Positions 29,521 to 49,400 of a DNA stretch of 64,000 nt are shown piece after piece. Numbering within the stretch: position 1 is the first letter of the stretch; each line of letters begins with the position of its first letter. The notes below the pieces were generated by a model that was not told the DNA's origin, searched no databases, and was given only the letters and a program-made list of their open reading frames with translations. The position numbers were made by a program, and so were the translations under genes. This DNA comes from a virus, in the IMG/VR virus record IMGVR_UViG_3300015371_000001, positions 62,001 to 126,000 of that record, one strand, 5' to 3'.

Positions 29521-29536
29521 GGCTGTTGGAGGCAGC

Positions 29537-31461: not shown

Positions 31462-31485
31462 AAAACGGCTCGAAGTGAGTATCTA

Positions 31486-31559: not shown

Positions 31560-31579
31560 TGCTACAAGGAGGCAGAGTA

Positions 31580-31870: not shown

Positions 31871-31877
31871 GGTCATC

Positions 31878-32653: not shown

Positions 32654-33105
32654 GCCCCGAGCCGGAGCAGGTCGCCGAGGTCCTGGAGGACGCCGCCGAC
32701 CTGATCGAGTCCGGGTGGTGCCAGGGGACCTGGACGCGCAAGGCGGTGACCTGGAACGGGCAGGATGCCGGGGAGGAGGTCTGCGCGTCGGAGGCGATCT
32801 CGCGGATGGTCTGGAACAACACCAGCACCAAAGCCGAGCAGGTCGAGTTGTCGACTGCTGCGCACCGAGCGGTGCTCGAACACCTGGGCCCTGAGGAGTT
32901 GAAGCACCTGACCGAGCGGCTGGAGGTCGACCGGCAGCATGGTGATGGCTTCTTGACACCACACATCGTGCTTTCGCGGACTCGCGACCCTGTCATCGCC
33001 TGGAACGACCGTCCGTCCATCGACGGCGGGCCGAATAAGCAGGAGGTCCTGGACACCTTCCGAGGTGCGGCCAAGGACGTACTGAAGCCTGAGGAGGCAG
33101 CATGA
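32650..33105 (+). CDS. DUF6197-like array member 2
   Basis: 151 residues, ATGA-coupled to member 1. AADLIESGWCQGTW, then EEVCASEAISRMVW and AWNDRPSIDGGPN with helix EVLDTFRGAAKDVL. A 50-residue insert between the Cys motif and WND holds helical, charged sequence. All three marks of the family are present. Confidence 0.68.
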   Translation: MSPEPEQVAEVLEDAADLIESGWCQGTWTRKAVTWNGQDAGEEVCASEAISRMVWNNTSTKAEQVELSTAAHRAVLEHLGPEELKHLTERLEVDRQHGDGFLTPHIVLSRTRDPVIAWNDRPSIDGGPNKQEVLDTFRGAAKDVLKPEEAA

Positions 33106-33647
33106 GTGAGGCGCGACTGAGCGCAATCGACCAGGTCATCGTGGACGCGATCCGGGGCGGGGCCGAGATCATCGAGCGGGACGGCTGGACCAAGGGCGAC
33201 CTGCACGCACCGACCGGTGAGCACTGCGCGTTGGGCGCGCTCGACGCCTGGCTGACCGAGCACACCCGTCACGGGACGGCGCTTGAGTACCTGAGGCTTC
33301 GTGAGCAGGTGCAGCAGGTGGTGAACCTGCATGTGCAGGACACGACGCGGTACTCCAACGTGGCGAGGTTCAACGACGCCACCCGGACCACCTACGCCGG
33401 TCAGGTGACTCGCAAGCTGCGGGAGGCGGCTGCCTGGTACGAGCGGACCCGGCTCGCTCAGGTCATGGGTTCGCTGACTGAGGTCGAGGCTGCGCTGAAG
33501 GCGGAGGCCAAGGCTGAGAAGAAGGCAGCAAAGGCCGAGCGCCGTGAGCAGCGCAAGATCAAGCGCAAGGCGCGGCGTTGGGGCCGGTCGCCGGTCACCT
33601 GGCCAGCCGAGGAGCAGGTCACCGACAAGGCCGAGGAGCGGGTGTGA
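33102..33647 (+). CDS. DUF6197-like array member 3 with basic tail
   Basis: 181 residues. GAEIIERDGWTKGDLH, EHCALGALDAWL, then RFND (Trp replaced by Phe) and helix VTRKLREAAAWY. The last 60 residues are a Lys/Arg/Ala/Glu helix (LKAEAKAEKKAAKAE) that could bind nucleic acid. GAGGAGGCAGC precedes the ATG. Confidence 0.66.
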   Translation: MSEARLSAIDQVIVDAIRGGAEIIERDGWTKGDLHAPTGEHCALGALDAWLTEHTRHGTALEYLRLREQVQQVVNLHVQDTTRYSNVARFNDATRTTYAGQVTRKLREAAAWYERTRLAQVMGSLTEVEAALKAEAKAEKKAAKAERREQRKIKRKARRWGRSPVTWPAEEQVTDKAEERV

Positions 33648-34108
33648 GCACGACGATGGCGATTTCGGCGCTGGACATCCTGCCGGTCTATGACTCGGAG
33701 ACTTCGGAGGTCATCGGCGGGTTCGACCGGACGGTTCAGCGGGACGACTCCGAGCGGACCGCCGAGATCTGTGAGAACGCGGCCAAGCTCATCGAGGAGC
33801 GAGGTTGGACCCAGGACACCGCCGTCGGCGCGAACGGCGGTGTCTGTCTGGTCGAGGCGCTGACCCGCGCCGCGCTGGACAAGGTGATCTTCACCAGTGG
33901 CGGGGCCGACGAGTCGGTTCGGGCGGCGTTCCAGAGGGCGCTGGACCACATGGAGTGGACGCTGTTCGGCTCCAAGACGCTGGACGAGGGCTACAACATG
34001 GCGCGCTGGAACGACCGGATAGGGCGTCGGGAGCAAGAGGTCCTGGACGCGCTCCACACCGGAGCCAAGCTCGCACTCAACCCGGAGGCAGACCGTGGCG
34101 ATGCATGA
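33644..34108 (+). CDS. DUF6197-like array member 4
   Basis: 154 residues from the GTG that overlaps the previous stop. NAAKLIEERGWTQDT, GGVCLVEALTRAAL, RWNDRIGRREQ and VLDALHTGAKLAL. The N-terminal 30 residues (SALDILPVYDSETSEV) are an added arm. Best preserved member of the array together with member 2. Confidence 0.7.
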   Translation: MSTTMAISALDILPVYDSETSEVIGGFDRTVQRDDSERTAEICENAAKLIEERGWTQDTAVGANGGVCLVEALTRAALDKVIFTSGGADESVRAAFQRALDHMEWTLFGSKTLDEGYNMARWNDRIGRREQEVLDALHTGAKLALNPEADRGDA

Positions 34109-34580
34109 TCATTCGGTCCTTTGTCCTCTGTGCAGTCCGACGATTGATCTGACCGAGCAGGAGGAGGCCAACCACATCGCGTCCGGGGTGAACCCGTCCA
34201 CCGGTACTCCGGCTGACCCTGGCATCAACACGCCGGAGCGTCGTCACGAGGACGAGCAGTTGGCTGACATCCTGGACCGGGCTGCCGATCTATTGGAGAC
34301 GCACGGTCGTTGCACCGAGCAGTTGGTCGACAAGGCGACCGGCGAGTTGTGTCTGGTCGGTGCGCTGATGAAGGCGAGCGACGAGCACGAGGTGGTCGGC
34401 AAGCGTCGTCGCCGGGTCTACCGGCACATGCTCGACACCACCTGGCTGGAGATGGATTTGCCTCGACTGTGGTTGTCGTCGTGGAACGACTCTAAATGGA
34501 CCACCGACCAACAAATCCTCGACGCCCTGCGTCTGGGAGCCAAGAACGCAAGAATGCCAAAACCGATGGAGGCAGAATGA
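34095..34580 (+). CDS. DUF6197-like array member 5
   Basis: 161 residues. A GTG start is chosen because GGAGGCAG lies 6 bases upstream; the ATG at 34101 is too far. An N-terminal CPLC motif is new to this member. Then DRAADLLETHGRCTEQ, ELCLVGALMKAS, SWNDSKWTTD and LDALRLGAKNA. The GW-QG motif has decayed to GRCTE. Confidence 0.66.
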   Translation: MAMHDHSVLCPLCSPTIDLTEQEEANHIASGVNPSTGTPADPGINTPERRHEDEQLADILDRAADLLETHGRCTEQLVDKATGELCLVGALMKASDEHEVVGKRRRRVYRHMLDTTWLEMDLPRLWLSSWNDSKWTTDQQILDALRLGAKNARMPKPMEAE

Positions 34581-35128
34581 ATACCACAATCGGGACGTTG
34601 ACCGAGTCCCCCACCGTGCAGTTGTCGATCACCAAGAAGCTGATCGATGAGGCCGTCGTGGGAGACTCCTCCCACTGCATGGTCGCCAACGCGGTCAAGC
34701 AGGCCATCCCCCACGCGCGGCACGTCAGCGCCGACATTCAGTCGATTCGCTTCAGCGATCCGAGCAAGGGTGTCCGCTACATCTACCTGACGCCGCGCAA
34801 GGCGCAGGAGGCGATCCTGTCCTTCGACCGGGGCAACAAGCCCAAGCCGTTCCGGACTACGATTCGGAATGCCCATGTGACCGAGATGGGCAAGAAGAAG
34901 TCGCCGAAGAAGATGGTCAGGCGGACGAAGGACGGCCCGCGCAGCACGCCGATGGTCGTCGGTGGCAAGCCTGCGCCGATGGGAGCGCTGTCCGGTACGG
35001 CACGGACCAAGGCCACCAAGAAGGCGGCGGCGCGCAAGGTCGGCAAGCTCAACCAGCGTCGGGCAGGCGAGGCCACGGGCCGGATCGGTCGTCGCCGTGA
35101 GTTCGGCCTTCGGGCGATGGTCAAGTAG
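34577..35128 (+). CDS. Conserved phage protein with basic C-terminal half
   Basis: 183 residues. The first 85 form a compact domain with DSSHCMVANAVKQAIP, VSADIQSIRFSDP and GVRYIYLTPRKAQEAIL, a pattern I associate with a recurrent actinophage family of unknown role. The rest is Lys/Arg-rich (MGKKKSPKKMVRRTKDG, KKAAARKVGKLNQRR), likely nucleic-acid binding. Not a DUF6197-like copy although it sits inside that array. Start ATG after GGAGGCAG. Confidence 0.66.
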   Translation: MNTTIGTLTESPTVQLSITKKLIDEAVVGDSSHCMVANAVKQAIPHARHVSADIQSIRFSDPSKGVRYIYLTPRKAQEAILSFDRGNKPKPFRTTIRNAHVTEMGKKKSPKKMVRRTKDGPRSTPMVVGGKPAPMGALSGTARTKATKKAAARKVGKLNQRRAGEATGRIGRRREFGLRAMVK

Positions 35129-35146
35129 CGCTTGGAGGTGAACCGA

Positions 35147-35206
35147 GTGCTGAGATTGGACGAGTGGGTCTACCCTGCGTGGTGGGACCCCAAGGAGGCA
35201 GCATGA
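35147..35206 (+). CDS. Possible leader peptide, 19 aa, Trp-rich
   Basis: A GTG with TTGGAGG upstream (8 bases) opens VLRLDEWVYPAWWDPKEAA and stops in the ATGA that starts the next gene. Three Trp in 19 residues is striking. Translational coupling or attenuation of the downstream gene is possible; chance is not excluded. Confidence 0.35.
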   Translation: MLRLDEWVYPAWWDPKEAA

Positions 35207-35724
35207 ATCCCTTCGGCCAAGAGCCGGAAGATGCCGAGCTAGGCAAGAACACTACGGTCATGGATCGGTCCGGTGGGCATTCGGGTGTGGTGGCCAAATA
35301 CTACGTGGCTCCGCCGCAAGTCGGCTCGGACGAGTACGACGTGCTGGACGCTGCGTGGCTAGACCACTTTCCCGGTCGGTCGAAGAAGCCGATCATCTCC
35401 GACTTGGTTGCCGACGTGATGGAGGCGTGCGCGGACTACATGACCGAGGTCGGTCACACCAAGTACACGCTCATCGACAACGACGGCTCGGTGTGTTTGA
35501 CCGGCGCGGTTGACGGTGTCACGAACGGTTGGCCGTCGTGGCAGCGGACGCTGTTCATGGATCACATGGAGGCCGTGGTTCGGCCTCCACAGAGGCCGAT
35601 GGCGCTGATCATGTGGAACGACTATCCCGAGACGACGCAGGAGCAGGTGGTCGAGGGCTTCCGGAAGGCTGCCAAGGTCGCTCGTGGAGCACCATTGGAG
35701 GATGCCTCCGATGGATCTCAATGA
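35203..35724 (+). CDS. DUF6197-like array member 6
   Basis: 173 residues after AAGGAGGCAGC. An N-terminal 70-residue extension (KYYVAPPQVGSDEYDVLD) precedes EACADYMTEVGHTKYTL, GSVCLTGAVDGVT, MWNDYPETTQEQ and VVEGFRKAAKVA. The W of GW is replaced by H. Most diverged member, separated from the others by one unrelated gene. Confidence 0.64.
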   Translation: MNPFGQEPEDAELGKNTTVMDRSGGHSGVVAKYYVAPPQVGSDEYDVLDAAWLDHFPGRSKKPIISDLVADVMEACADYMTEVGHTKYTLIDNDGSVCLTGAVDGVTNGWPSWQRTLFMDHMEAVVRPPQRPMALIMWNDYPETTQEQVVEGFRKAAKVARGAPLEDASDGSQ

Positions 35725-36082
35725 CCCGAAGCGAAAGCGGTACTACCCTCCCCGGCGTCCGACCGAAGTCTTTATGGCCAAGCTCGCGGCTGCGATCCAG
35801 GACTACCGGGAGTGGACCGGGCTGTCCCAGCGCGAGCTAGGCGAGCGGATCGGTCTAGAGCACTCCTCGGTGTCCAAGCTGGAGAAGGGCCAACGGATGC
35901 CGTCGATGTGGATTCTGGAGAACCTGGCCAGGGCCGGGGTCATCACCATCTTCATCTCGAAAAGCGGCACACAGATCAAGGCAGTCAAGAGTGAGCAGAA
36001 CAAGAGCCCGGATCATCAACCCGCGCCAGGCGGACCTGGCGCAAGCTCGGGAGTTCGTCCGCTCCCTGGTGGCTCTGCGTAA
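35711..36082 (+). CDS. Cro/C1-type helix-turn-helix regulator A
   Basis: 123 residues. HTH at about 36-75: LSQRELGERIGLEHSSVSKL then EKGQRMPSMWILENLARAG, a full XRE pattern. The ATG at 35711 is 9 bases after GGAGG; the ATG at 35702 abuts it. Its last 30 residues (Pro/Gly/Ser-rich) overlap the next regulator's start by 92 bases in another frame and look like read-through of that sequence rather than a folded part. Confidence 0.76.
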   Translation: MDLNDPKRKRYYPPRRPTEVFMAKLAAAIQDYREWTGLSQRELGERIGLEHSSVSKLEKGQRMPSMWILENLARAGVITIFISKSGTQIKAVKSEQNKSPDHQPAPGGPGASSGVRPLPGGSA

Positions 36083-36260
36083 GATCCAGGGACTTACGCA
36101 GGCGCAGGTCGCCAAGCGGATGGGCGTGCCGCAGTCACAGATCTCGGTCCTGGAGAACGAGCACCACGTACTTCGGCTCGACACCCTTCAGCGTTACGCC
36201 AGAGCCATCGGGGCCACGCTTCACTTCACCTACACCGTGGACGAGGCCAAGGTCGAGTAG
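35991..36260 (+). CDS. Cro/C1-type helix-turn-helix regulator B
   Basis: 89 residues from a GTG. HTH LTQAQVAKRMGVPQSQISVL, then ENEHHVLRLDTLQRYARAIG and the strand TLHFTY, the layout of antitoxin-like and phage XRE proteins. Being paired with regulator A, the two may form a switch or heterodimer. The 92-base overlap with A is unusual here, where 4 bases is normal. Confidence 0.76.
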   Translation: MSRTRARIINPRQADLAQAREFVRSLVALRKIQGLTQAQVAKRMGVPQSQISVLENEHHVLRLDTLQRYARAIGATLHFTYTVDEAKVE

Positions 36261-36289
36261 GCTGGAGCCCTATCTATTTGGAGGCAGCA

Positions 36290-36781
36290 ATGTGTGAATA
36301 CTGTGGTGACCCGACGGTGGCGGCTGATCTTCCGACGCCAGACATCCCCAAGCTCCGCAAGCTCTATGAGTGGGCGTGCGAGCAGGATGCGTTGCGGAAG
36401 AAGTCGTTTCGTGCAGGCGACTACGACTTGACCGAATGGGCTCAGGGGCAGTGGGCGCAGAAGATCGTGGGTGTAGAAGGCGTCTGCGGTACGGCGTACT
36501 GCATAGCCGGGAAGGCGGCGGCGGAGGCTGGCGCGACCTGGACCGAGCAGCAGTTGAGCGGTGAGCACGGTGGGTCGACCTGCACGCTGCCGAATGGCAG
36601 GGTCATGACCGTACGCATTTTTGCGCAGCAGGACTTGGGTCTGTCGCATAGCGAGGCCAGCCGGTTGTTCCACGGCACGAACGACATCGGCACGATCCAC
36701 CATGTCCTGAGGGACATCTGGGAGCGGGCTGGGGAGAAGTTCGACCTGACGCTTCCAGAGCATTTGACTGATTCGGACTGA
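36290..36781 (+). CDS. Conserved phage protein with CGTxxCIAG motif
   Basis: 163 residues. CEYCG at the start, a helical stretch, WAQGQWAQKIVGVEG then CGTAYCIAGKAAAEAG, and the C-terminal half QQDLGLSHSEASRLFHG. CGT-x2-CIAG followed by a LGL-S-EA-LF helix is a recurrent pattern in actinophage accessory proteins of unknown function. TTTGGAGGCAGCA precedes the ATG; a TATCTATT element just before may be a -10. Confidence 0.66.
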   Translation: MCEYCGDPTVAADLPTPDIPKLRKLYEWACEQDALRKKSFRAGDYDLTEWAQGQWAQKIVGVEGVCGTAYCIAGKAAAEAGATWTEQQLSGEHGGSTCTLPNGRVMTVRIFAQQDLGLSHSEASRLFHGTNDIGTIHHVLRDIWERAGEKFDLTLPEHLTDSD

Positions 36782-36784
36782 ACG

Positions 36785-37189
36785 ATGGGACGCTTTGCCG
36801 ATACGTTGCGCAAGGAGATGGAGCCTGAAAATCCTCTGCGCAGCGGCGATACCCAGGTGGCGTTGATCCACTTCCTGGCGCGTCTGGAGGCGTTGGAGGC
36901 CGAGGAGCAGCAGGCCATCGAGCAGGCCACCGACAAGGCGCTGGAGCGGATGGGTCACCCACCGTACCGAGGGCCGTTGATCAGAGACGTACGTGCCGTT
37001 CTGAAGCGTCGTAGGGATCGCCGGGGGGAGATGGTCACCGAGCCTGAGATCGAGGCTCCAGCGCCCGTAGACGACGATCCTGAGGGTGGCTGGTTCTTCT
37101 CCGTGCAGGGGATGATCAGGTTCGAGGACGGAGAGGGGATCTTCGATGAACAGGAAGCCCCCGAATTGGAAAAAGATGCCACCGGATGA
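36785..37189 (+). CDS. Hypothetical acidic/helical protein
   Basis: 134 residues. Helices (FADTLRKEMEPENPL, VALIHFLARLEALEAEEQQA, KALERMG), a basic patch (LKRRRDRRG) and an acidic tail. Overlaps the next gene by 44 bases in another frame. Unknown. Confidence 0.6.
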   Translation: MGRFADTLRKEMEPENPLRSGDTQVALIHFLARLEALEAEEQQAIEQATDKALERMGHPPYRGPLIRDVRAVLKRRRDRRGEMVTEPEIEAPAPVDDDPEGGWFFSVQGMIRFEDGEGIFDEQEAPELEKDATG

Positions 37190-37523
37190 GCAGTCGCAGT
37201 ACCTAGCCGATCTGTACTACGTCTCGGCTCAGATGAGGAGCGACCAACCTCACCCGTGGGCAGGACCGTTCTCAGCGACTCGGTTCGTGCAGGTGGAGTC
37301 CATCTTCGGGATCGCCGCCGCGTTGTTCGGCTTCTGGATCTGGAGTCAGCCCAGCGGTCAACTCCTTGCTGGCGTCTCGTGGGTGGTCGCTGTCGTTTGT
37401 CTGTGGGAGCCCGCGTGGCTGATCGCGTCGTACTTTGCGGCGATTGGCTACGCCAGGAAACACCCAGAGCGATATGAGGTTCGGGGGTCGAAGTTCCGAC
37501 TACGACTGGAGGCGATGAAGTGA
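37146..37523 (+). CDS. Two-TM membrane protein
   Basis: 125 residues. A polar N-terminus, membrane segments near 49-66 (VESIFGIAAALFGFWIW) and 74-98 (VSWVVAVVCLWEPAWLIA), and a basic end (RGSKFRLRLEAMK). Its start lies well inside the previous gene; the frame and hydrophobic pattern still support it. Confidence 0.62.
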   Translation: MNRKPPNWKKMPPDEQSQYLADLYYVSAQMRSDQPHPWAGPFSATRFVQVESIFGIAAALFGFWIWSQPSGQLLAGVSWVVAVVCLWEPAWLIASYFAAIGYARKHPERYEVRGSKFRLRLEAMK

Positions 37524-37723
37524 CAGACGAGAACGATCTGCTAGATGCTGACGCTGCGTGGGAGCGTGCCAGTGCTCTGCTCCGGCAAGCCGACCGGAGC
37601 TTGCGGGGCGGAACCCCCGGCATCGCCGACACGCAGGCCAACCTGGCGATGGCCTACACCTTGTACGCCACCGGCAGGCAGGAAGGCAGCATCATCTTCG
37701 AACCTGCTGAAGAAAACAGGTAG
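37520..37723 (+). CDS. Small helical repeat-like protein, 67 aa
   Basis: GTGA-coupled. AAWERASALLRQADRSL and IADTQANLAMAYTLYATG form two helices reminiscent of one TPR-like hairpin, often seen as a short actinophage protein. Unknown partner. Confidence 0.6.
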   Translation: MTDENDLLDADAAWERASALLRQADRSLRGGTPGIADTQANLAMAYTLYATGRQEGSIIFEPAEENR

Positions 37724-37772
37724 AACCGAGTACCAGGGTTCGAGAGGGTATCTATTCACAGGAGGCGCACCA

Positions 37773-38033
37773 GTGAGCGTTGACACCCAGACGGCCCCGG
37801 AAGGCAAGGCAACCTTGTCGATTCCGGACCCCACCGGGGACACCCGCATTCTGTGGGACCCCACCAACCGTGACGAGGTCGACCTGGCCCGAGCCGCTTT
37901 CGAGCAGGCGAAGGCAAAGGGAATGGCAGCGTTCGCAGTCAACCCGGCTGACGGCTCTCAGGGCGGTCAGATCCGTGAGTTCGACCCGGAGGCGAAGGCC
38001 ATCGTCATGGTGCGGCAGTTGCAGGGAGGCTAG
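37773..38033 (+). CDS. Conserved small phage protein
   Basis: 86 residues from GTG with AGGAGG 7 bases upstream. The pattern GDTRILWDP-TN-DEVDLARAAF, then KGMAAFAV and EFDPEAKAIVMVRQLQGG is one I recognise from many actinophages, where it often precedes a gene like the next one. Function unknown. TATCTATT at 37750 may be its -10. Confidence 0.68.
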   Translation: MSVDTQTAPEGKATLSIPDPTGDTRILWDPTNRDEVDLARAAFEQAKAKGMAAFAVNPADGSQGGQIREFDPEAKAIVMVRQLQGG

Positions 38034-38038
38034 TCCCC

Positions 38039-39016
38039 TTGCCGGACCGCGATGAGGACCGAGGCCCGGATGTGTCCCTGAAAGCTGGGACCATCCGGGC
38101 TTCGGATTTATCAGACTTTGCAATCAGCCTGAAGCACGTACAACGAGGGATCGAGAACATGGCCATCACCATCCGGGACTTGGACGGCGCGTTCCGTACG
38201 GCGGCGGGGCAGATCACGACCAACACCACGACGGGGACCTACACGGGTCGGATCGTCAACAACACCAACGCGACGGTCACCTTCAACGATATGTATACCA
38301 ACACTTGGACCACTGGCTACAACGGCTACGACCGGATCACGTACGACGACTTCGGGTGGGACCAACGGTTGGAGGACTATCGACGTTGGTATACGACGCC
38401 CCCACGGGATACGCGGACGCCGGAGGAGATTCAGGAGGCTGCGGCGCGACTTCAGCGTGAGCTAGACGAGCGGCAGTACCGGCGTGAGGAGCAGAGCCGT
38501 CGTCGGCTGGAGCGAGCCCAGCGTGAGGAGGAGAACCGGCAGGCGGCGCACAACCGTGGCCTGGAGGTCCTGGAGTGGATCTTGACGCCCGAGGAGCGCG
38601 AGCAGTGGGCCAAGGACAGTCAGGTCGTGGTCAAGGGCTCTGAGGGCAACCTGTACCGGGTGAACACCTCTGGGGTCCACGGCAATCTCACCGAGGTCGA
38701 TGAGCACGGCTGCGAGTTGGCCCACATCTGCGTCGCGCCTCAGATGTACGTGGGTCGGAACGACCACGAGGACGACTATGGACGAGTAATGCCGTCGTCA
38801 GATGGCTGGGTGGGTCAGATCCTCATGATCAAGAACAGCGAGCGGGAGATTCAGGCCAGGGGTAACTACTCGCGTCGTAATCCGTGCCGTCGAGACCGGA
38901 ACCGGACCGCGCGGATCAACCGTGAGCCGATGCCTGGAGACCGGATGGAGCTTGCTCACGTCATCCGTGAACAGCGTGAGCGGATGGAGCACAACTGGAA
39001 CGTGAACGCCGCGTGA
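38039..39016 (+). CDS. Phage protein with HGCE/C domain, long paralogue
   Basis: 325 residues from a TTG, GGGAGG 9 bases upstream. An N-terminal Thr/Asn-rich beta part (TTGTYTGRIVNNTNATV), a long charged helix (about 125-180), then a domain NLYRVNTSG, LTEVDEHGCELAHICVAPQMY, WVGQILMIKNSE. The same domain closes the next gene. It is widespread in phages and unassigned. ATG at 38159 would be the alternative start. Confidence 0.66.
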   Translation: MPDRDEDRGPDVSLKAGTIRASDLSDFAISLKHVQRGIENMAITIRDLDGAFRTAAGQITTNTTTGTYTGRIVNNTNATVTFNDMYTNTWTTGYNGYDRITYDDFGWDQRLEDYRRWYTTPPRDTRTPEEIQEAAARLQRELDERQYRREEQSRRRLERAQREEENRQAAHNRGLEVLEWILTPEEREQWAKDSQVVVKGSEGNLYRVNTSGVHGNLTEVDEHGCELAHICVAPQMYVGRNDHEDDYGRVMPSSDGWVGQILMIKNSEREIQARGNYSRRNPCRRDRNRTARINREPMPGDRMELAHVIREQRERMEHNWNVNAA

Positions 39017-39591
39017 GTGAGGATCTGTGGCGCAAGCTGCTCGTACAGGAGGGCATCGTGCAGGCTCCGATGGAAGCCGATGTGTTGTGGAAGATGTGGG
39101 TCGACCGGTACTTGAAGCCGTGGCAGCCGTCGGCTCGCGAACGTGAACGGCACGCCGCTCAGGCTGAGCGAACCCGGCAACGACTCCGGCAGGACTTGGC
39201 TGAGCAGCGTGGTCACGAGCGCAATGAGCGTGCGGCGTGGGAGGAGTTGGACTCGCATCTCACCAAGGATGAGGTCGCTCAGCGAAAGAAGGACGGTTAC
39301 GTCGACTTCATGGGCTCGAACGGTCGGCGGTACCGGGTCTATATGAGTGACGAGTTCGGGATCACCGACAACGTCTGGGAGATCGACCAGCATGGGTGCG
39401 AGATCCGGAACTACTGTGGAGCGCCGGAGATGTACGCCAACGACATGAGGTTCGCGCGTACGAAAGCCATTCCTGAGCCGTTGGGATACTTGGGACAGGT
39501 TTTGACGTTGAGGTTCAATGCCGAGGCATTTTTGGCAGCGGCGTACGCAGGCGAAGTATGGCAATGTGAGAGGCAGCAAGGCAGTGGCTAA
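39013..39591 (+). CDS. Phage protein with HGCE/C domain, short paralogue
   Basis: 192 residues, GTGA-coupled to the long paralogue. A charged helix (ERERHAAQAERTRQRLRQ) then KKDGYVDFMGSNGRRYRV, VWEIDQHGCEIRNYCGAPEMY and GYLGQVLTLRFN. It lacks the beta-rich N-terminus of its neighbour, so the pair looks like a tandem duplication with domain gain or loss. Confidence 0.66.
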   Translation: MSEDLWRKLLVQEGIVQAPMEADVLWKMWVDRYLKPWQPSARERERHAAQAERTRQRLRQDLAEQRGHERNERAAWEELDSHLTKDEVAQRKKDGYVDFMGSNGRRYRVYMSDEFGITDNVWEIDQHGCEIRNYCGAPEMYANDMRFARTKAIPEPLGYLGQVLTLRFNAEAFLAAAYAGEVWQCERQQGSG

Positions 39592-39727
39592 CAGGTACCG
39601 GACCAGGCAGCGTCCGGCAAGACAGCGGGGTCATCTGGCGGACAAGCTCCACCACCCTGTTTCGATCCTCGTGATGGGCGTGGCGGTGTTCACCATCTTG
39701 GTGTGGCTTCCACGCTGCGCGGGATGA
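39584..39727 (+). CDS. Small membrane protein, 47 aa
   Basis: GTG start, AGAGGCAGC upstream. A basic N-terminus (RYRTRQRPARQRGH) and one membrane segment (VSILVMGVAVFTILVWL). The positive-inside rule puts the N-terminus in the cytoplasm. Overlaps both neighbours by 4-8 bases. Confidence 0.58.
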   Translation: MANRYRTRQRPARQRGHLADKLHHPVSILVMGVAVFTILVWLPRCAG

Positions 39728-40230
39728 CGAAGAAGGCTCCGCCGAATCCCGAGACGGTTCGTCTCATCGAGGCGACTCGTGAGGCTCACGAGGTTCTGGC
39801 TGATCTGAAGGCGGAGCGGAAGGCTATCGAGGACCTGGTTGAGAACGCTTCGGCGAAGCTCGCCGAGGAGCTTCAGGCGATGCATGACGGTTTCGTCGCG
39901 GCGCTGGTCGAGCAGGGCTTGGAGAACTACAGGTCCACGATTGAGCAGGCTCAAGAGGATGGCGTAAGGACGATCCTCGAAGGGTTTGATGAGATGGTCA
40001 GCAAGTTGTTGATCGCGACCAAGAAGGATCAGCGCCGAGGACTGCCGTCGATTCCTGATCTGGTAGAGCAGATGGCGTCCGGCAACCTGGATTTCGACTC
40101 TGAGGCGATGAAGCGCAAGGTCCAGGAGATTGAGGCGGAGATGGCCGCTGAACAGCGGTTGCGTGACCGGGAGGAGCGACGTGCCCGAGCTAAGGCAGAA
40201 GCTAAGTCCCGAAGAAAAGGTCGCCGGTAG
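39724..40230 (+). CDS. Coiled-coil protein, 168 aa
   Basis: ATGA-coupled. Almost entirely helical with heptads (IEATREAHEVLADLKAERK, LAEELQAMHDGFVAALVE) and a very basic C-terminus (EERRARAKAEAKSRRKGRR). Likely an oligomer that binds nucleic acid or acidic partners. No family recognised. Confidence 0.66.
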   Translation: MTKKAPPNPETVRLIEATREAHEVLADLKAERKAIEDLVENASAKLAEELQAMHDGFVAALVEQGLENYRSTIEQAQEDGVRTILEGFDEMVSKLLIATKKDQRRGLPSIPDLVEQMASGNLDFDSEAMKRKVQEIEAEMAAEQRLRDREERRARAKAEAKSRRKGRR

Positions 40231-40525
40231 GAAGTTCCGGGACGAGCAGCAGGCGTACCTCGACAGGCTGAATGAGACAGACCCGCCGACGTACGACGAA
40301 GGTGTGGACACGCTCCAGCGATACATCCGCCACGAGTGTGCCAAGCAGGGAGGCCGGAAGGCGTTGTCGATGCAGGAGGTCTACATCTTCAGCGATGACA
40401 AGAAGTTCGGCTTCATATTCAAGGAAGGCAAGTGCCGGTGCGGAGAGACAGCACGAACGGCAACAGGTCGGTTCGTGATCGCATCGGAGAGACCACCACT
40501 GGAAGGAAGGGTGGCACGTAGATGA
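40181..40525 (+). CDS. Hypothetical protein, 114 aa
   Basis: The GTG start has GGGAGGAG about 6 bases upstream and lies 50 bases inside the previous gene. Helical first half (KFRDEQQAYLDRLNE, RYIRHECAKQGGRKAL) then strands VYIFSDDKKFGFIFKEG and a CRCG knuckle. Unknown. Confidence 0.6.
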   Translation: MPELRQKLSPEEKVAGRKFRDEQQAYLDRLNETDPPTYDEGVDTLQRYIRHECAKQGGRKALSMQEVYIFSDDKKFGFIFKEGKCRCGETARTATGRFVIASERPPLEGRVARR

Positions 40526-40851
40526 CTGATCCGTGGGACATGCCAGAGATGAAGGAGTGGGCCGACCACATCCGGAAGGAGTTGGTCCCTAAGCTTGTCG
40601 GCTCGGCAGCGACGGTGTCGATTGTGCCGAAGGGTGAGACCGACGTGAAGTACGCGGTCGAGCTAGGCATGTCGATCATGTTGGAGAAGCCGCTAGTGCT
40701 GATGGTCTCTCCTGGCGCGCATGTGCCGGACAAGCTGGCGCAGATCGCCGACGCCATCATCGAGATCGACTTCGATGACGCTGACAGTCAGCACCAGGCA
40801 GGCGAACGGCTCCAAGAGTTCCTGATCTCGGTGGCGAACGATGGATCTTGA
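40522..40851 (+). CDS. Possible nucleoside 2-deoxyribosyltransferase-like fold
   Basis: 109 residues. ETDVKYAVELGMSIMLEKPLV then LMVSPGAHVPDKLAQIADAI resembles the segment of nucleoside-2-deoxyribosyltransferase/TIR-like Rossmann folds where an ELG helix precedes a KP strand and a proline-glycine loop. The first part of that fold is short here, so it may be a reduced or distant member. ATGA-coupled. Confidence 0.45.
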   Translation: MTDPWDMPEMKEWADHIRKELVPKLVGSAATVSIVPKGETDVKYAVELGMSIMLEKPLVLMVSPGAHVPDKLAQIADAIIEIDFDDADSQHQAGERLQEFLISVANDGS

Positions 40852-41002
40852 CGATCCGTACATCGACCTCGGGTGGTGGGCGATGTCGGGTCGAAACCTC
40901 ATGGAGGCGCTTCAGCGGGCTCATAATGGCGAGGACCCTGACCTGATCTACGCCGAGCTATACGCCAACTCGCGGACGGAGATCCCTCCAGTCGCGGAGT
41001 AG
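40841..41002 (+). CDS. Small acidic protein, 53 aa
   Basis: ATG overlaps the previous gene by 11 bases. Acidic start (DLDDPYIDLGWWAM), then a helix (GRNLMEALQRAHNG) and DLIYAELYAN. The reading frame ends 24 bases before the next gene. Unknown. Confidence 0.58.
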   Translation: MDLDDPYIDLGWWAMSGRNLMEALQRAHNGEDPDLIYAELYANSRTEIPPVAE

Positions 41003-41026
41003 GCTCGCAGTAGGAGGCAGTCCCCG

Positions 41027-41251
41027 ATGAGCATGTTCCCTGGCAGGTTCACCCTGCGGTGTTGGCACTGTGGTCTGTGGCGCACCTTCCGGAACGGTAA
41101 GACCAACGAGGAGATCGATCAGGCGCTCCGTGACAAGGAGTGGGTCGTACGCCGGAACGAATCTGGTGACCTGACCGGATTGGCTTGTCCGGAGTGTTCC
41201 AGCCGCTACTTCCTGACAGGGGAGGTGGCTCATGAAACCGACCAAGCGTGA
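41027..41251 (+). CDS. Zinc-ribbon protein, 74 aa
   Basis: CWHCG and CPECSSRYF, 42 residues apart, form a four-Cys zinc ribbon around a helix (NEEIDQALRDKEWVV). TAGGAGGCAGTCCCCG precedes the ATG. Ends inside the start of the next gene (20-base overlap). Confidence 0.68.
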   Translation: MSMFPGRFTLRCWHCGLWRTFRNGKTNEEIDQALRDKEWVVRRNESGDLTGLACPECSSRYFLTGEVAHETDQA

Positions 41252-41897
41252 GGTCATCGGCTTGAGTGCGGTGGTGCTCGGCTTCATCGGCTTGATCATG
41301 GCTTGGATCTTCACCGATCACGGCAGTGCTGACGAGCAGACCAAAGATCCTCCCATCGTGGAGATCGCCGTGGGGCAACCGGCGTACCCAGGGGTCTCTG
41401 GGTTTGGTACCCGTACAGGTGGTGGTCGAGGAGGACCGGTCTGTCAGGTGACGGACGCCGATTCCTTCACGGAGTGCGTCGCGCAGGACGGTCCGCGCAT
41501 CGTCGTTTTTGAGAAGGGCGGCACCTACGTCTTGGATCAGCCGGTGGAGATCACCGAGCCGTACTTGACCATCGCCGGTCAGACGGCACCTGGAGGGATC
41601 AAGCTGACTCAGCCGCTCAAGGTCATGACGCATGACGTGGTGATCCGGTGGGTTGACTGCAACGTGTACCTGAGCCGATATGCAATGCTCCCCCGAGCCA
41701 ATGTGGTCCTGGACCGGATCGGACCGAGCGCCGTGCCGGTGATCCCAAAGCCGCTCATCGACAGCGATGATGACGGGATGCCTGACGACTTCGAGATCTG
41801 GCATCACAACGATCTCAACGCCGACGATGCGGCGTATGACGTGGACAAGAACGGCTATGCCGATATTGAGGACTGGTTCAACCAGTTGTTGTCGTGA
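41232..41897 (+). CDS. Membrane-anchored pectate-lyase-like protein, core deleted
   Basis: 221 residues. An N-terminal membrane segment (VIGLSAVVLGFIGLIMAWI), then the exact opening of pectate-lyase-type beta helices: AYPGVSGFGTRTGGGRGG, RIVVFEKGGTYVLDQP, TIAGQTAPGGIKL. Full-length enzymes continue for about 200 residues with the catalytic Arg and Ca sites; here the chain jumps after about residue 155 to DSDDDGMPDDFEIWHHNDLN and DVDKNGYADIEDWFNQLL, the calcium-binding C-terminal end of the same enzymes. So the catalytic middle is missing in one open frame. It may bind glycan without cutting it. ATG start in the previous gene's end. Confidence 0.68.
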   Translation: MKPTKREVIGLSAVVLGFIGLIMAWIFTDHGSADEQTKDPPIVEIAVGQPAYPGVSGFGTRTGGGRGGPVCQVTDADSFTECVAQDGPRIVVFEKGGTYVLDQPVEITEPYLTIAGQTAPGGIKLTQPLKVMTHDVVIRWVDCNVYLSRYAMLPRANVVLDRIGPSAVPVIPKPLIDSDDDGMPDDFEIWHHNDLNADDAAYDVDKNGYADIEDWFNQLLS

Positions 41898-42202
41898 ACC
41901 AACCGCGAGGCGTAGGCGACATCTTCGGGGAGGACATCCCTCCGCTGAGGGGTACGCCCGCGTGTGACGGTGTGGACCCCAAGCTGTTCGACTCGGTCCA
42001 TGAGGAGGACCACATCACGGTCGCCGTGGAGTACTGCGCTGGGTGTCCGGCGAAGCGGTCGTGTCTGGAGCGCCGGGAGTGGTTGGCGAATCTCCACCCG
42101 TATGCCAAGCCGGAGGGGACCTGGGGCGGCAGGCTCTACAACACCAAGGGCCGTCAGAAGCGAGTCAAGCCGAACAAGTACATCCGATACCGAGCGGCGT
42201 GA
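41894..42202 (+). CDS. WhiB-like iron-sulphur regulator
   Basis: 102 residues from a GTG overlapping the previous stop. Four Cys in the WhiB layout: TPACDG, then YCAGCPAKRSCLE, followed by the GTWGGRL turn and a basic tail (RQKRVKPNKY). WhiB proteins carry a 4Fe-4S cluster and bind the principal sigma factor. Phage copies such as that of TM4 are known to interfere with host WhiB2 and cell division; whether this one does is inference. The domain is complete. Confidence 0.88.
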   Translation: MNQPRGVGDIFGEDIPPLRGTPACDGVDPKLFDSVHEEDHITVAVEYCAGCPAKRSCLERREWLANLHPYAKPEGTWGGRLYNTKGRQKRVKPNKYIRYRAA

Positions 42203-42423
42203 CCGATAATCTTGTCGTGGAGATCGACCCGGCTCACGAGAGTACGTGGGGAGCAACCCCGGAGTACAAAGCGGCGTGGGAAGCCAAGCATGGTGAGAGC
42301 GCCCTACGTCCGGCTGAGAGCGCTCCCAAGGCCGAGTGGGTCGATTGGGCTGTCGCGCATACTGACCTTGACCGGAAGCAGGCCGAGGGTCTGACGACGA
42401 AGGCACTGAAGGAACTGGAATGA
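42199..42423 (+). CDS. Hypothetical protein, 74 aa
   Basis: GTG at 42199 overlaps the WhiB stop; a second GTG at 42217 follows CCGATAAT by 6 bases and would be a leaderless start giving 68 residues. Sequence: STWGATPEYKAAWEAKHG, then WVDWAVAHTDLDRKQAEGLT with TKALKELE, the pattern of short phage proteins that carry a SAP- or LEM-like helical end. Unknown. Confidence 0.6.
   Translation: MTDNLVVEIDPAHESTWGATPEYKAAWEAKHGESALRPAESAPKAEWVDWAVAHTDLDRKQAEGLTTKALKELE
42203..42210 (+). promoter_or_regulatory. Candidate -10 box CCGATAAT
   Basis: GATAAT ends 6 bases before the GTG at 42217, as at 2953-2960. It would give a leaderless transcript starting inside the gene's annotated 5' end. Confidence 0.38.
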
Positions 42424-42569
42424 GAGGTAGCCCGCTCGTCTGGACGATTGTCGGCATTCTGCTGATCATCCTGTTGGTGATCATTCTGATCAGGGCGTTT
42501 GACGACAACGGCGATGGCGGCAAGGGAGATGACGGCGTTCTCACACCTCGCCTCGTCCTTGTGAGGTAG
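42420..42569 (+). CDS. Small single-pass membrane protein, 49 aa
   Basis: ATGA-coupled. Residues 6-25 are a strong membrane segment (VWTIVGILLIILLVIILI), then a Gly/Asp-rich soluble part (FDDNGDGGKGDDGV). Upstream of the membrane protein at 42572. Confidence 0.64.
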   Translation: MRGSPLVWTIVGILLIILLVIILIRAFDDNGDGGKGDDGVLTPRLVLVR

Positions 42570-42571
42570 CC

Positions 42572-43009
42572 GTGGCTGATCTCGGGCAGCCGATTTCGAA
42601 CCAGAGTCTCTTGGTGGCAGCAAAGATTGTGCTGCCAGGTTTCCCTGCCGTGTCCATCTGGATCGGCCTGGCGTTCCTGTTCGGTGATCCGTCTCGTTAC
42701 ACCTCGCCTTCGCTCGATGTGGCCAAGGACATCATGCCGATTCGGACCTGGGGCGTGTTGTTCTTGTTGGTCGGCGCGATTGAGTTGTCTGCGCTGATCT
42801 TCGGAGGCAATCGGTTTTGGTTCTCTGCTGCGCTCGCCATCGGAGCGGCCATGTTCGCCGTCTGGACCGTGGTGTTGACGGTGGCCATCTTCACGGTGCC
42901 GGACGCCTCGCTGACCGGTCCGGTCTACCCTGCATTCATCGCGCTCGTCCACCTGTCATTCATCCGCTACTTGAGCTACGACTGGTACCAGATCGAGCGC
43001 AGCCGTTAG
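42572..43009 (+). CDS. Four-TM membrane protein (paralogue of the 21257 gene)
   Basis: 145 residues from GTG. Same topology and signature loop as the 21257 protein: FGDPSRYTSP, DVAKDIMPIRTWGVLFLLVG and IELSAL. The rest has diverged. One copy sits at the start of the lysis-side membrane cluster, the other just before the DnaB helicase, so the module may have been copied or exchanged as a unit with a flanking gene. Confidence 0.7.
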   Translation: MADLGQPISNQSLLVAAKIVLPGFPAVSIWIGLAFLFGDPSRYTSPSLDVAKDIMPIRTWGVLFLLVGAIELSALIFGGNRFWFSAALAIGAAMFAVWTVVLTVAIFTVPDASLTGPVYPAFIALVHLSFIRYLSYDWYQIERSR

Positions 43010-43022
43010 ATCCTCGAACAGC

Positions 43023-43029
43023 TAGGTAT
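43023..43029 (+). promoter_or_regulatory. Shared helicase start block (TAGGTAT)
   Basis: TAGGTAT, then 8 bases to GTG. The block CTAGGTATTAGAGAGTGTGG here and CTAGGTATCAGTGAGTGTGG before the SNF2 gene differ at two of 20 positions. Conservation of both the box and its distance to the GTG suggests a common promoter and start signal for the two helicases. Confidence 0.5.
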
Positions 43030-43037
43030 TAGAGAGT

Positions 43038-44510
43038 GTGGCTACGGCAATCGAGCATGGGCAGAAGGTCCTGGCCTCGATTGTCCCGAATGGTCGCGAT
43101 GAGCTTGACCTAGCGCTGCGGTACCTGCTGCCCGAGCACTTCCAGGACCCGACCCAGCGCAATCTGTTCCTGATGCTGGAGCGGTACGCCGACATCACGG
43201 GCGCGGTCATGACCCGTGACGCCTTCGATGATTTGATCTCGAAGGCTACGGCGGACGCAGGCAAGGCCGCGCTCTATCTGGAGACCTACGACCTGCTGGT
43301 TGCGATGCCGTCCTCTCCGGCTGAGTTCCGCTGGAGCATGAACGAGCTACGGGACCTGGCTGCTCAGCGAGAGACTGGCCGGGTCATCACCGAGGCTATG
43401 GGCATCCTCCAGACCGGGCTCGATGGGGAGCACGGGAAGCGTCTCAAAGGCCATGAGGATGCCCGTACGCATGTGCTGGCGGAGTTCGCCGAGATCGACC
43501 GCTCCCTGGCCATGCAAGAGGCCCCAGAGGGCGCTATCCGGCATCAGCAGGAGGAGATCCTTCAGGACTATGCCGACCGGAAGCGAGCCACCTCAGAGGG
43601 CCGGAACGTCGGCGTCGACTTCGGCTTGCGTGCGCTTGACTACAAGATCGGTGGGCTCCAGCCTGGCGACTTCGCCCTGATCGCCGGGTACTCCAGCGAC
43701 GGCAAGACATCTCTGGTGGTCCAGCTTGCTTGGGCAGCGGCGGTCCAGCAGGGCAAGAACGTGGTCATCGCCACCACGGAGACCACGCAGCCTCAGGTCC
43801 GGCGCAAGCTGGTCGCTCGGCACTCCACCCTGGAGCAATTCGGTCTGACCGACGGCCTCAACTCCAGGGCGCTGCGGGACGGCACGTTGGACGCCGATGA
43901 GGAGCGGGTCCTTCCGGAGGTGGTCACCGACCTCACCCGGAATCCGGCGTACGGGGAGGTCTACATCAAGCAGATCCCGAGGGGGCAGACCCTCGCGCAG
44001 TTGGAGTCGGCGCTGTATCGGATTCACCGGAGCTTCCCCATCGACGTGTGCGTGATGGACTACTTGGCTCTGCTGAAGGCCGAGCGCCGGAGGGAATCCA
44101 TCCGGGACGAGCTTGGCACGCTGATGAAGGAGTCCAAGCAGATCGCTACTACGTTCGATGATGGCCGTGGTCTCATCTTCGTGAGCCCCTGGCAGGTCAA
44201 CCGGACGGCGTACGACAACGCGCTGCGGCTGGGCTACTACACCACGCTGGCGCTGTCAGAGACGGCAGAGGCGACCAACTCCCCCGACATCATCGTCAGC
44301 GTACTCAACCAGATTGCCGATAGCGATGCACGGTTCGCCGAATTGAAGCTCCAGCTACTCAAGAACCGGGACGGCGAGACGGCGTCGAGTTTGATGATGG
44401 CCGTCGACTACGCCACCTGTAACTTTTCCGAGAAGGTGTCGAACACCGGCATTGAGGGCGTCCTGGACGGCACGGAGGACCAAGAGTTCGGCGGTCTCCT
44501 CGGCATGTGA
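43038..44510 (+). CDS. DnaB-type replicative helicase
   Basis: 490 residues. N-terminal DnaB domain (HGQKVLASIVPNGRDELDLA) then the RecA-like core: motif 1 AGYSSDGKTSLV with K223, DVCVMDYLALLKAE as Walker B, and FVSPWQVNRT and SPDIIVSVLNQI as later motifs. It would unwind DNA 5'-3' at the phage fork as a hexamer. The start is GTG, 8 bases after TAGGTAT. The expected primase partner may be the zinc-finger protein at 61472. Confidence 0.88.
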   Translation: MATAIEHGQKVLASIVPNGRDELDLALRYLLPEHFQDPTQRNLFLMLERYADITGAVMTRDAFDDLISKATADAGKAALYLETYDLLVAMPSSPAEFRWSMNELRDLAAQRETGRVITEAMGILQTGLDGEHGKRLKGHEDARTHVLAEFAEIDRSLAMQEAPEGAIRHQQEEILQDYADRKRATSEGRNVGVDFGLRALDYKIGGLQPGDFALIAGYSSDGKTSLVVQLAWAAAVQQGKNVVIATTETTQPQVRRKLVARHSTLEQFGLTDGLNSRALRDGTLDADEERVLPEVVTDLTRNPAYGEVYIKQIPRGQTLAQLESALYRIHRSFPIDVCVMDYLALLKAERRRESIRDELGTLMKESKQIATTFDDGRGLIFVSPWQVNRTAYDNALRLGYYTTLALSETAEATNSPDIIVSVLNQIADSDARFAELKLQLLKNRDGETASSLMMAVDYATCNFSEKVSNTGIEGVLDGTEDQEFGGLLGM

Positions 44511-44868: not shown

Positions 44869-45267
44869 ATGGCTGGTTTGGTTCAGGCGCACGCGAACGC
44901 GATTCTTGATGCGTCGCTGGACGGAGGCTCGGTCACGCTGTCGACCTCCGCGATCAAGTGCCGTCTGATGACGGCCAATGGCTCTGCTACGTCGGCAGGA
45001 ACGGAGCTTTCGACCAGCGGTGGTTACACCTCGGGTACTGGCGCTCCGACGGTCACGTTCGCAGCAGCGTCGTCGGGCTCGAAGGCGTCGAACGCCGCAG
45101 TTACGGTGACCAACATGCCAGCGGCCACCATCGTCGGCGTTGAGCTTTGGGACTCGGCTGGTACTCCGCTGCGGAAGTGGTGGGGAGCACTGAGCGCCAA
45201 CAAGACGACCAACTCCGGCGACACCTTCTCCATCGCCTCGGGCAGCCTGACCGCGTCCCTGACCTAG
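44869..45267 (+). CDS. Tail/fibre-associated protein, paralogue of 13834
   Basis: 132 residues. AIKCRLMTANG and GTELSTSGGYTSGTGAPTVTF, with WDSAGTPLRKWWGALSANK and SFS-type ends: a compact beta protein resembling the outer part of the minor tail protein at 13834. It likely attaches or caps fibres. AGGAGGGCTAGGG upstream of the ATG. Confidence 0.6.
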   Translation: MAGLVQAHANAILDASLDGGSVTLSTSAIKCRLMTANGSATSAGTELSTSGGYTSGTGAPTVTFAAASSGSKASNAAVTVTNMPAATIVGVELWDSAGTPLRKWWGALSANKTTNSGDTFSIASGSLTASLT

Positions 45268-45276
45268 GGAGGGACC

Positions 45277-45729
45277 TTGGCTGAGTACTGGTTGAGCGTC
45301 GATGCCATCGCGCTCTCCGCGTCTACGGCGAAGTCAGTGTTGGAGATTGCGGCTGGCTCGAACGACCCTGTCTCCATCGTGGAGTGGTGGGTCGAGTTCG
45401 ATGGCACGTCCAGCACGGCGGTGCCGGTCAAGGTCGAGGTCGGTCGATTCAGCGCTGGAGTGACGACGGCGACCACCGGCACGGCGGAGAAGCGAGACAC
45501 TGGAACATCCGGTGGCGGCACGGCGGCGACGGTGAAGCACACCACAACGACCGAGGGTGCCGGTACGGCGGACGACATTCAGTTCCACCGGGTTCCGCCC
45601 ACTTCAGGTCTGTGGTACATCGCTCCGATGGGTCGCGAGGTCATCATCGCGGGTTCGGGATTCTGGCGGATGCGGTTGAATGCTGCGGCCACCGTGAACG
45701 CCACGGTGGGAGTGGTTTGGCAGGAGTGA
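45277..45729 (+). CDS. Tail-fibre cassette beta protein, 150 aa
   Basis: TTG start with GGGAGGG upstream. Gly/Thr/Ala-rich, beta-structured (VEWWVEFDGTSSTAVPVKVE, GTADDIQFHRVPPT, GREVIIAGSGFWRMRL). Matches a phage structural protein pattern seen next to minor tail proteins. No Cys, no catalytic motif. Confidence 0.6.
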   Translation: MAEYWLSVDAIALSASTAKSVLEIAAGSNDPVSIVEWWVEFDGTSSTAVPVKVEVGRFSAGVTTATTGTAEKRDTGTSGGGTAATVKHTTTTEGAGTADDIQFHRVPPTSGLWYIAPMGREVIIAGSGFWRMRLNAAATVNATVGVVWQE

Positions 45730-45735
45730 TCCTGC

Positions 45736-46479
45736 GTGGCGAACCCGACCTTCAGCAACCTCACCTCTGGTACCGACAACGTTGACCGCGCGACGTACAC
45801 CACGGCATCGGTTTCGCCGACGGCCAACCGGCTGATCTTCGTCTCGATCAGCGCCTTTGACACGTCTACGACGACGCCAGGCACACCGGCTGTCACCGGC
45901 AACGGCATCACTTACGACTTGGTCGAAGATTGTCTCGTGGACGTGGCTGGATCAGACCGAGCCGGTGCATGGATTTTCCGGGGGATGAGTGCGAGCCCTT
46001 CGAGCGGGACCATCTCCATTGCGTTCTCCGGTATCCCATCCGACGGCGTGCTCAACTGTTGTGTGTGGTCAGTGGATCAGTCGAGCAGTGACGTGGATAC
46101 TTCCGGCTCGAACGGCTCTGGCGCGATTGGCAACACAGCGTTTCAGGATGACGACGGCACCGGAACGTCGGCCACCGCGAGCATCACGATTGGAGCAAGT
46201 AACAGCGGGTTCGCGGCATGTGGTATCCAGGTTTCGACGCCTGGTACGACGGCACGGTCGTCTCCAGCTTGGACTGAGCTAGCTGACGTGGCGCTGAGTT
46301 CTACTGGATTGCAGACGCAGTACTACGCAGGTGGAGCGGACACGGCTGTCTCTGCTACACATGCGAGCGCTCGGTCTGGGATCATCGGAGTTGAGGTTAA
46401 GCAGGCAGTTGCGGCAGGCAACCCTCGGTCGATTTACCGACCGAATCGTGCTGCGGTAGAGCGAGCGAGTAGGTGGTGA
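45736..46479 (+). CDS. Tail-fibre cassette beta-sandwich protein, 247 aa
   Basis: GTG start. A series of strands with Ser/Thr/Gly loops (ITYDLVEDCLVDVAGSDRAG, SGTISIAFSGIPSDGVLN, TSATASITIGASNSGFAA), ending in a basic tail. Its overall layout is like the first 200 residues of the hub/fibre at 15720 (GRWGGAMVAYRGV, ISFPASNQGT), so it is probably a related virion surface domain encoded separately. Confidence 0.58.
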   Translation: MANPTFSNLTSGTDNVDRATYTTASVSPTANRLIFVSISAFDTSTTTPGTPAVTGNGITYDLVEDCLVDVAGSDRAGAWIFRGMSASPSSGTISIAFSGIPSDGVLNCCVWSVDQSSSDVDTSGSNGSGAIGNTAFQDDDGTGTSATASITIGASNSGFAACGIQVSTPGTTARSSPAWTELADVALSSTGLQTQYYAGGADTAVSATHASARSGIIGVEVKQAVAAGNPRSIYRPNRAAVERASRW

Positions 46480-46482
46480 CAC

Positions 46483-49400
46483 ATGGCTCGTCTAGGACGT
46501 AGTCGACCGATCACCCCTCGTCTGATCGTTCCGAACAAGGCGCGACCGAACGGTTTTTGGTTCAGGGAGCGCTTCGAGGGTGGAGCGCCGTACGCCAACG
46601 AGACGATGATCTGGGGCGGCACTGCCAGCCACCCGTACACCACCACGGGCGGCACCGGAAGCACGTTCGATCTCAACCACACGGCTGATTTCGCGCTTGG
46701 TGACCGGTCCATCAAGATCACCACCAACGGCACCAATGCCAACACCTTCGTGCGGAAGCTCAACGGCACGGCGATGGACTTCACCAACCGGGTGCCGCGT
46801 ATCTGGATCAAGGTGGACACCAACGCCAACTTCCTGGACGGACAGTTGTGGTTGGGCTCCGGTGGTGCGTTGGCCAATGCCTACAAGTTCAAGTTCAGTC
46901 CGGATGACGCGGTTGTCCCGCAGTACTTCGGCGGTGAGTGGCAATCCATCACGTTTCCGTGGTCGTACGCGACAACGACAGGTACGCCGACGCGGAGCGC
47001 TTTGACAGACCTTAACTTCCAGATTTTCGACGGTAGCGCCGGAGTGTTGAACGTCTGGTGGGGTGGCATCTCCTCGATCCCCGATACCACGGTGCCGTAC
47101 CCCAACGGCGTGGTGAGTTTCACCTTCGATGACGGCTTCGCATCTACCACCAATGAGGCCGCGAGCTACATGGACCCCAAGCACATGCGGGGCACCTGTT
47201 TCATCATCGATGACGTGCTGGGGACCGGCGTCTACATGACGACTAGCCAGGTGCAGGCGCTTGAGAGTACCTACGGGTGGGAGATCGGTCTGCACTCACA
47301 TACGGCGGCGGATCACAATGCCGGTGGCGGTCTCACATCATTGACCGAAGCTCAGCTACGCGCCAACATGGCGGCGAACCGAGCGAACCTGCTCTCGCTG
47401 GGGATCAAAGATCCGGTGTCGATGGCGTGGCCACAGGGGCTCACGAATGTGGCGACCGGCAACGTCATGAAGGACATCGTCTCCGGCGTCGCACGGACGA
47501 CGAAAGGTGCGCACACCAACACCTTCCCGCCGTACGACCGTGTCAGAGCGTATTCGCGTGCTGTCGATGCCTCTGATTCGTCGTCCACGATCAACACGAT
47601 TATCGACAACGCAGTGACCAACAAGGATTGGTTGATTCTGCTGTTCCATGACATCGTGTCGTCGGGAGCGACAGGGAACCAATGCAACCGGTCGACTTTC
47701 CGCGCCATTGTGGACCACGCGGAGACGGCTGGGATCGCGGTATTGCCGGTCAAAGAGGTCTACGACGGTCGGCCTCCTGGCCGGGACACCATCACGATCA
47801 GTAACACTGATTTCAACACGGTCACACAGAGCGATACGGCGCATGGCTCGTTGACGATGGACCCGGAGAACCGGGTGCATGGTCGGTTCGGAGCCAACGT
47901 CAAGGCAGATGCCACCGGCTCTCAGATCACGATGGAGCGGACCTTCCCGACCGGGAGCATTTACGTTCGCTTCTATCTCACGATTGGTGATGACACCACG
48001 ACGGCCACCATCGTGAGATGTCGAGCTTCGCCGACGACCAACGTGTGTGGACTTCGCCGCCGTAGTGACGGGGTGGGTAACACCTCTATCGAGCTACGTA
48101 ACGGTACGACGAACACCGGTACGAAAACGACCGCTCTTGGGGTTGATACTCCAGCCCGGATTGAGTGGTTCGTTGATGCAGTGAACAACACGCAGACGCT
48201 CAGGCTCTACAAGGGTGCGAACGTCGAAGGTACGACGTTCGATGAGGAGATCACTGACGCGACGGCGACGAATGATCCGAACATCCTCCAGTTCGGTACG
48301 CCGAACACCGTTGAGACCACTGCTGACGATTCGTGGGATGACATCGCGCTCGACACAGCAGGGTGGATTGGTCCTCTTGCGTACGAGCTAACACCTCCGG
48401 TTGAGGGCGTTGCTCCTCTGACGGCGACTTCGAACCTGGTGACAGCAGCTTCGGTCACTGAGGTGGCGACGGCTACGTTGGCTGCGACCTCCAACTTGGT
48501 GACAGCCGGAACGGTGACGACTCCGTACCCGGCTGTGCTGGGAGCTAACGGTCAGTTTGATGAGGCTGAGACTCAAGCCTTCATGGGTGTCCTTCAGGAC
48601 TCCAATGGCAACCTCTACCGAGTCCTTGAATCCACGTTGGCGGATAACAACCAGCCCAGGATGATGAAGTCCACCGATGAGGGCTTGACCTGGACCGAGC
48701 AGGATGCTGCGAACCGGCCAGGTACGAGTGCTGGCGTGATCTGTGACCTGGAGTCCGGCCATGTGACGTGGGACCACGTCGACAAGACGATCACCTTTAC
48801 CTGGCAGCGGTCCGGCAATGTGGCGTACTCGAAGTTCAAGACTTCGGATGCCGCGAGCAACCCGGACACCTGGACCTCCAACGTCCGAGAGCTTCACACC
48901 ACGGTGACGGCAGCGGCTCCGCAGTACACGTCGCATACTTCACCGCAGGACCAGGCGTACGAGTGGTTGTTCTGGGGATCGAACACTCCCAAGCCGCAGT
49001 TCCGGAGCCGGACCAACTCCTCTACGTTGGGCTCGGTCACCGATGTCGATTCGACCGGGGTCAACCCGTCGGCGGTGCTTTTGCCGAACGAGCACGACAC
49101 CATGATCATCTACGAGAAGTCGAACCAGGTTCACTACAAGAAGCTGACCTCGTCCGGCACGCTCGACTCAAGTTCCACCCGTGTCGATGCCTCCGGGTTG
49201 CAGACTGGTAGCTCAGGTGCGGTTGTGGCGTACGCCGCTCCGGTGGCGTACCTCGGACCGAACGGCACCGATGTGGTGGTCTCGGTGCTGTTCATCGACG
49301 TGAACGGCGACTTGCGGTCGGTGGACATCGTCAATGGGACCCCCGGCTCTGAGTCGGTGGTGACGACGAACAACCCGGCAGCCGATGTGGGCACGACCAC

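Follow-up and report, generated by a model that had tools for sequence, protein, structure and literature searches.

A phage gene of 221 codons resembling a pectate lyase without its middle

What is a pectate lyase that carries the two ends of its family in one frame and lacks the part between them? The question is raised by a gene at positions 41232 to 41897 (plus strand) of the window, the whole stretch of 64,000 nucleotides analysed here from an environmental phage. The gene starts with ATG and runs for 221 codons with no internal stop, as read from the list of open reading frames and the translation. A putative ribosome-binding site, GGGAGG (41220 to 41225, plus strand), lies 6 nt upstream of the ATG. 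Codon use in the frame was phage-like, with a value of 0.198 compared with −0.04 and −0.24 in the shifted frames, and the GC3 was 0.76. Scans for promoters and terminators gave no signal above the chance level. The TGA stop codon overlaps the GTG start of a WhiB-like regulator gene (41894 to 42202, plus strand; PF02467, E=5.7e-7), in agreement with the position directly before such a gene given in a preliminary description of the locus.

We examined which parts of the enzyme family are retained. Near the N-terminus, residues 8-26 (VIGLSAVVLGFIGLIMAWI; 41253 to 41309, plus strand) form a predicted membrane segment with a mean hydropathy of 2.49 and a predicted helix at residues 9-27. No strong cleavage site was predicted for this segment, which is consistent with the anchor proposed earlier, and cleavage might occur at GSA/DEQ (residues 31-36). 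Residues 46-141 (41367 to 41654, plus strand), with the motifs GGRGG and TIAGQTAPG, correspond to the start of PelZ (NCBIfam NF041900, E=4.5e-17, profile positions 22-125 of 422) and matched the solved lyase 9BUJ (E=2.4e-6); the hhalign probability for this part was 99.7%. Residues 173-221 (41748 to 41894, plus strand) align with the DxDxDGxxD C-terminal tail of the same enzymes, a TSP3 or pseudo-EF-hand calcium motif (PMC11229556), at 45% to residues 392-440 of the lyase relative L002. The ligand positions D177, D179, D181, G182, D185, E188, and E213 are all retained. Between the two parts lies a remodelled junction, residues 142-172 (41655 to 41747, plus strand), in which residues 146-165 keep the remnant of one further coil and, by alignment to relatives, about 254 family residues are missing around residues 165-172.

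A profile built from 11 full-length lyases matched the gene in two pieces, at profile positions 30-134 (E=5.5e-33) and 398-446 (E=1.7e-11) of 448, and both pieces share a single open frame, as previously noticed for the pectate-lyase opening and the calcium-binding end. The N-terminal and C-terminal ends of one family standing in one frame argue for a deletion of the core. No further match to this profile was present elsewhere in the 141-kb phage record, and a split gene with its core encoded at another site in the phage was rejected on this ground. In 76 relatives, the DH-motif Asp and the first calcium-tail Asp (equivalents of D161 and D177) are 224-329 residues apart, with a median of 269.5, compared with 16 here, and the size of the loss is therefore estimated at about 254 residues. 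The absence described at first was thus correct, but its size of about 200 residues was too small. Motif spacing was likewise at least 288 (median 326) in the 88 relatives with both motifs, against 65 in the 221-aa gene.

The lost part comprises the SWSxDE segment, most of the groove-forming coils, and the catalytic Arg in HHNxxAxxxRxP. The last corresponds to Arg220, the proton-abstracting residue of PfPL1 (PMC11229556), which aligns with an Arg invariant in 76 of 76 relatives; a catalytic Arg was sought in the retained part and was not there. In the DH motif, D161 is kept and the His is replaced by R162. Judged from these sequence features, loss of the core and of catalysis is very probable and the protein would hardly be an enzyme, so that the word "inert" in the preliminary description appears well chosen.

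We then compared the gene with its relatives. The profile of relatives matched solved PL1 enzymes, namely 9BUJ (E=1.7e-77), VexL, the pectate trisaccharide-lyase of T. maritima, Jun a 1, and PelC. The structure 9BUJ is that of PfPL1 and is described as the first to be solved for subfamily 2 of PL1, to which the same paper also assigns PelZ and three enzymes of B. thetaiotaomicron (PMC11229556). The PL1_2 enzymes (PelZ; BT_4115, BT_4116, and BT_4119) were the top match in both sequence and fold, sharing the N-terminal motifs, the first coils, and the pseudo-EF-hand tail; the phage gene differs from them in lacking the 254 or so residues that carry most of the groove and the region around Arg220, and in having a membrane segment with no clear cleavage site. 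VexL (PL1_13, PDB 6FI2) shares the PL1 beta-helix, but it is a full-length enzyme that retains the catalytic Arg. Pectate lyases of the same family are also encoded on IMG/VR environmental virus contigs (L011-L066), where they are either of full length or truncated by the end of the contig, and often lie within larger proteins; none of these contigs was among the relatives of the phage traced through DnaB. In the viral-contig scans, single-sequence patterns for the lyase gene or DnaB were unproductive, whereas alignment-based scans were productive.

Neither a short relative nor a complete known family of 221-aa length was found among the matches listed from the phage, plasmid, viral-contig, and genome collections, which may lack close relatives of this phage; all relatives among these matches were near full length, kept the core, or were cut by a contig end. 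Several candidates for short relatives were rejected: L134 and L136 look like adjoining full-length lyase genes that the search had fused, in L035 and L110 the C-terminal tail follows several hundred residues downstream, and L084 (325 aa) has the core and lacks the tail. No close homologue suitable for measuring selection was found, and the open-licence literature gave no report of a truncated, anchored pectate lyase in a phage. The best genome match, L067, comes from a metagenome-assembled genome labelled Williamsia; we rejected it as a hint to the host, since its composition looks like that of another phylum, and its contig may be mis-binned or its genome misnamed.

An AlphaFold2 model of the 221-aa protein, built with an alignment of full-length relatives, had a pLDDT of 84.8 and a pTM of 0.75, with block pLDDT values of 86-97 across residues 51-140. 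By our own reading of the strand lists, it contains about four coils plus the tail, and these four are what is left of the groove-forming beta-helix of about 300 residues in PL1_2; a modelled full-length relative has about ten coils (pLDDT 93.2). Structural comparison with the PDB placed the model with PL1, with PfPL1 (9BUJ) as the top match (E=2.3e-5) and further PL1 lyases at E values of at least 0.05. No short viral protein stood out in a search of a viral structure library. The exposed end of the beta-helix may destabilise the protein.

The genomic setting was compared with that of related phages. The DnaB-like helicase gene (43038 to 44510, plus strand; profile and sequence matches) served as a conserved anchor: its product is 48% identical to gp51 of Microbacterium phage Magritte, and 18 IMG/VR relatives were found with it. 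The order helicase, DNA-binding gene, DnaB is conserved across the related phages. The distance from the DNA-binding gene to DnaB is 15.7 kb here, compared with 0.9-1.1 kb in G007, G017, and Magritte. The lyase-like gene lies 1.1 kb upstream of DnaB in the resulting accessory interval (27291 to 43037, plus strand, by locus comparison), and its neighbours are small genes that either match zinc ribbons weakly or encode membrane segments. No pectate-lyase match was present in the 19 related records (18 from IMG/VR and Magritte), many of which are partial. The related phage G015 carries an exported right-handed beta-helix accessory gene directly after DnaB (L163:10770-11783; Beta_helix, E=1.8e-5, marginally below the cut-off). 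It differs in having no detectable sequence relation to the lyase-like gene, a length of about 310-337 aa, and a signal peptide instead of an anchor. Exported beta-helix cargo would thus seem to have reached the neighbourhood of DnaB at least twice.

Conservation was assessed over columns at least 90% conserved in the relatives, taken here as near-invariant. The gene keeps 22 of 29 such columns in the N-terminal part and 10 of 11 in the C-terminal part (32 of 40 together), but only 1 of 5 beside the junction, a figure that counts residues only and becomes 1 of 17 when deleted columns are included. The junction differs from the retained parts with p=0.014 (Fisher, small numbers), and the family residues R142, R144, H162, and S164 are D, N, R, and G in this gene. 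The N-terminal part is itself divergent: it keeps 76% of its near-invariant columns, whereas family members keep 97% on average and only 1 of 76 is equally low, and it lacks the LND.GPG turn and R80. This divergence fits a relaxed constraint after loss of enzymatic activity.

These changes, together with the scrambled junction segment, the single occurrence, and the absence from related phages, are also what a decaying relic would display, that is, a laterally acquired lyase gene that lost its core by random in-frame deletion and drifts without function, not yet having gained a stop. We give this explanation a little over one chance in three. Against it, the frame and the ribosome-binding site are undamaged, as are the membrane segment, the codon use, and the positions of the calcium ligands, and phages tend to shed dead DNA. 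When neutral drift changing 23-28% of the residues was simulated, 8-12% of trials were stop-free; the simulation is rough, beginning from the present-day gene and depending on the age of the deletion, and the stop-free frame gives weak support to retention.

The explanation that we favour starts with a secreted pectate-type lyase of PL1_2, taken up by the phage or by a donor. Its central and distal coils, together with most of the C-terminal region, would then have been lost through an internal deletion that kept the frame, although this order of events is our reconstruction. What was left would be a stub consisting of the membrane segment, about four of about ten coils, and the calcium-motif tail, most likely co-produced with the small genes beside it, which are zinc-ribbon-like and WhiB-like. 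The N-terminal signal-anchor would insert the stub with its remainder outside the membrane, where it may sit at the host envelope, stabilised by calcium, and any role would be in binding and not in cutting. In favour of such a stub we count the two family ends in one frame, the contrast in length and motif spacing with the relatives, the pattern of near-invariant columns, the phage-like codon use, GC3, ribosome-binding site, stop/start overlap with the WhiB-like gene, expanded interval, beta-helix gene of G015, and AlphaFold2 model. Counted against it are the N-terminal divergence, the absence from the 19 related records, the lack of a close homologue, the possibly unstable helix end, and the frame, which a chance deletion preserves in one case of three. 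Taken as a whole, with acquisition, core deletion, loss of catalysis, membrane tethering, and a retained role, this account has about an even chance of being right, and the choice between retained function and decay is close to even. That the lyase was made into a minimal tethered envelope protein, a new small host-takeover or exclusion protein built of a beta-helix cap plus a calcium tail, is a tentative extension, somewhat unlikely in our judgement.

It had been suggested that the protein binds glycans at the cell surface, as a tethered decoy masking receptors and excluding other phages. The predicted membrane segment would suit a small exported accessory protein of this kind, and phage exclusion proteins are often small membrane proteins. 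This suggestion did not hold up well, because most of the groove was lost together with the catalytic part: the substrate groove runs along coils that are mostly deleted, according to the alignment, the models, and the PfPL1 structure (PMC11229556). In addition, the pseudo-EF-hand calcium of PfPL1 is possibly structural (PMC11229556), and no exclusion-like homologue or genetic linkage was seen. We regard the decoy as improbable. The collapse of a full-length gene during metagenome assembly is conceivable for a record that is an assembled virus contig, but it is very unlikely, since near-invariant residues beside the junction are changed, which a software join of an intact enzyme gene would not explain.

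The pectate-lyase-like gene without its middle is real and unusual, and it is a single case. A functional stub would show how phages can reuse a carbohydrate-active enzyme as a small envelope protein. Whether or not it is functional, labelling genes of this kind as viral auxiliary metabolic genes for pectate lyases overstates their role, since the profile that fits best is that of an enzyme and the active site is gone.

The surroundings have further features. The statement that the gene does not lie with tail genes was only partly right, as a carbohydrate-active, structural-looking module (44869 to 51234, plus strand; profile matches) with fibre- or head-like genes begins 3 kb downstream. It includes the gene for a 1583-aa protein (46483 to 51234) with a polysaccharide deacetylase domain at residues 207-331 and repeats of about 20 residues (ATLAATSNLVT); a DNA tandem repeat with a 60-base unit (49961 to 50147) lies within this gene. 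Upstream, four adjoining DUF6197 (PF19698) genes at 32191 to 35724 form a tandem paralogue array within the accessory interval. In a related phage, the DnaB gene (L163, 8276-10840) contains an apparent intein of about 360-370 residues at Walker A (GYSSDGK/AVAVS...PTHN/TSL).
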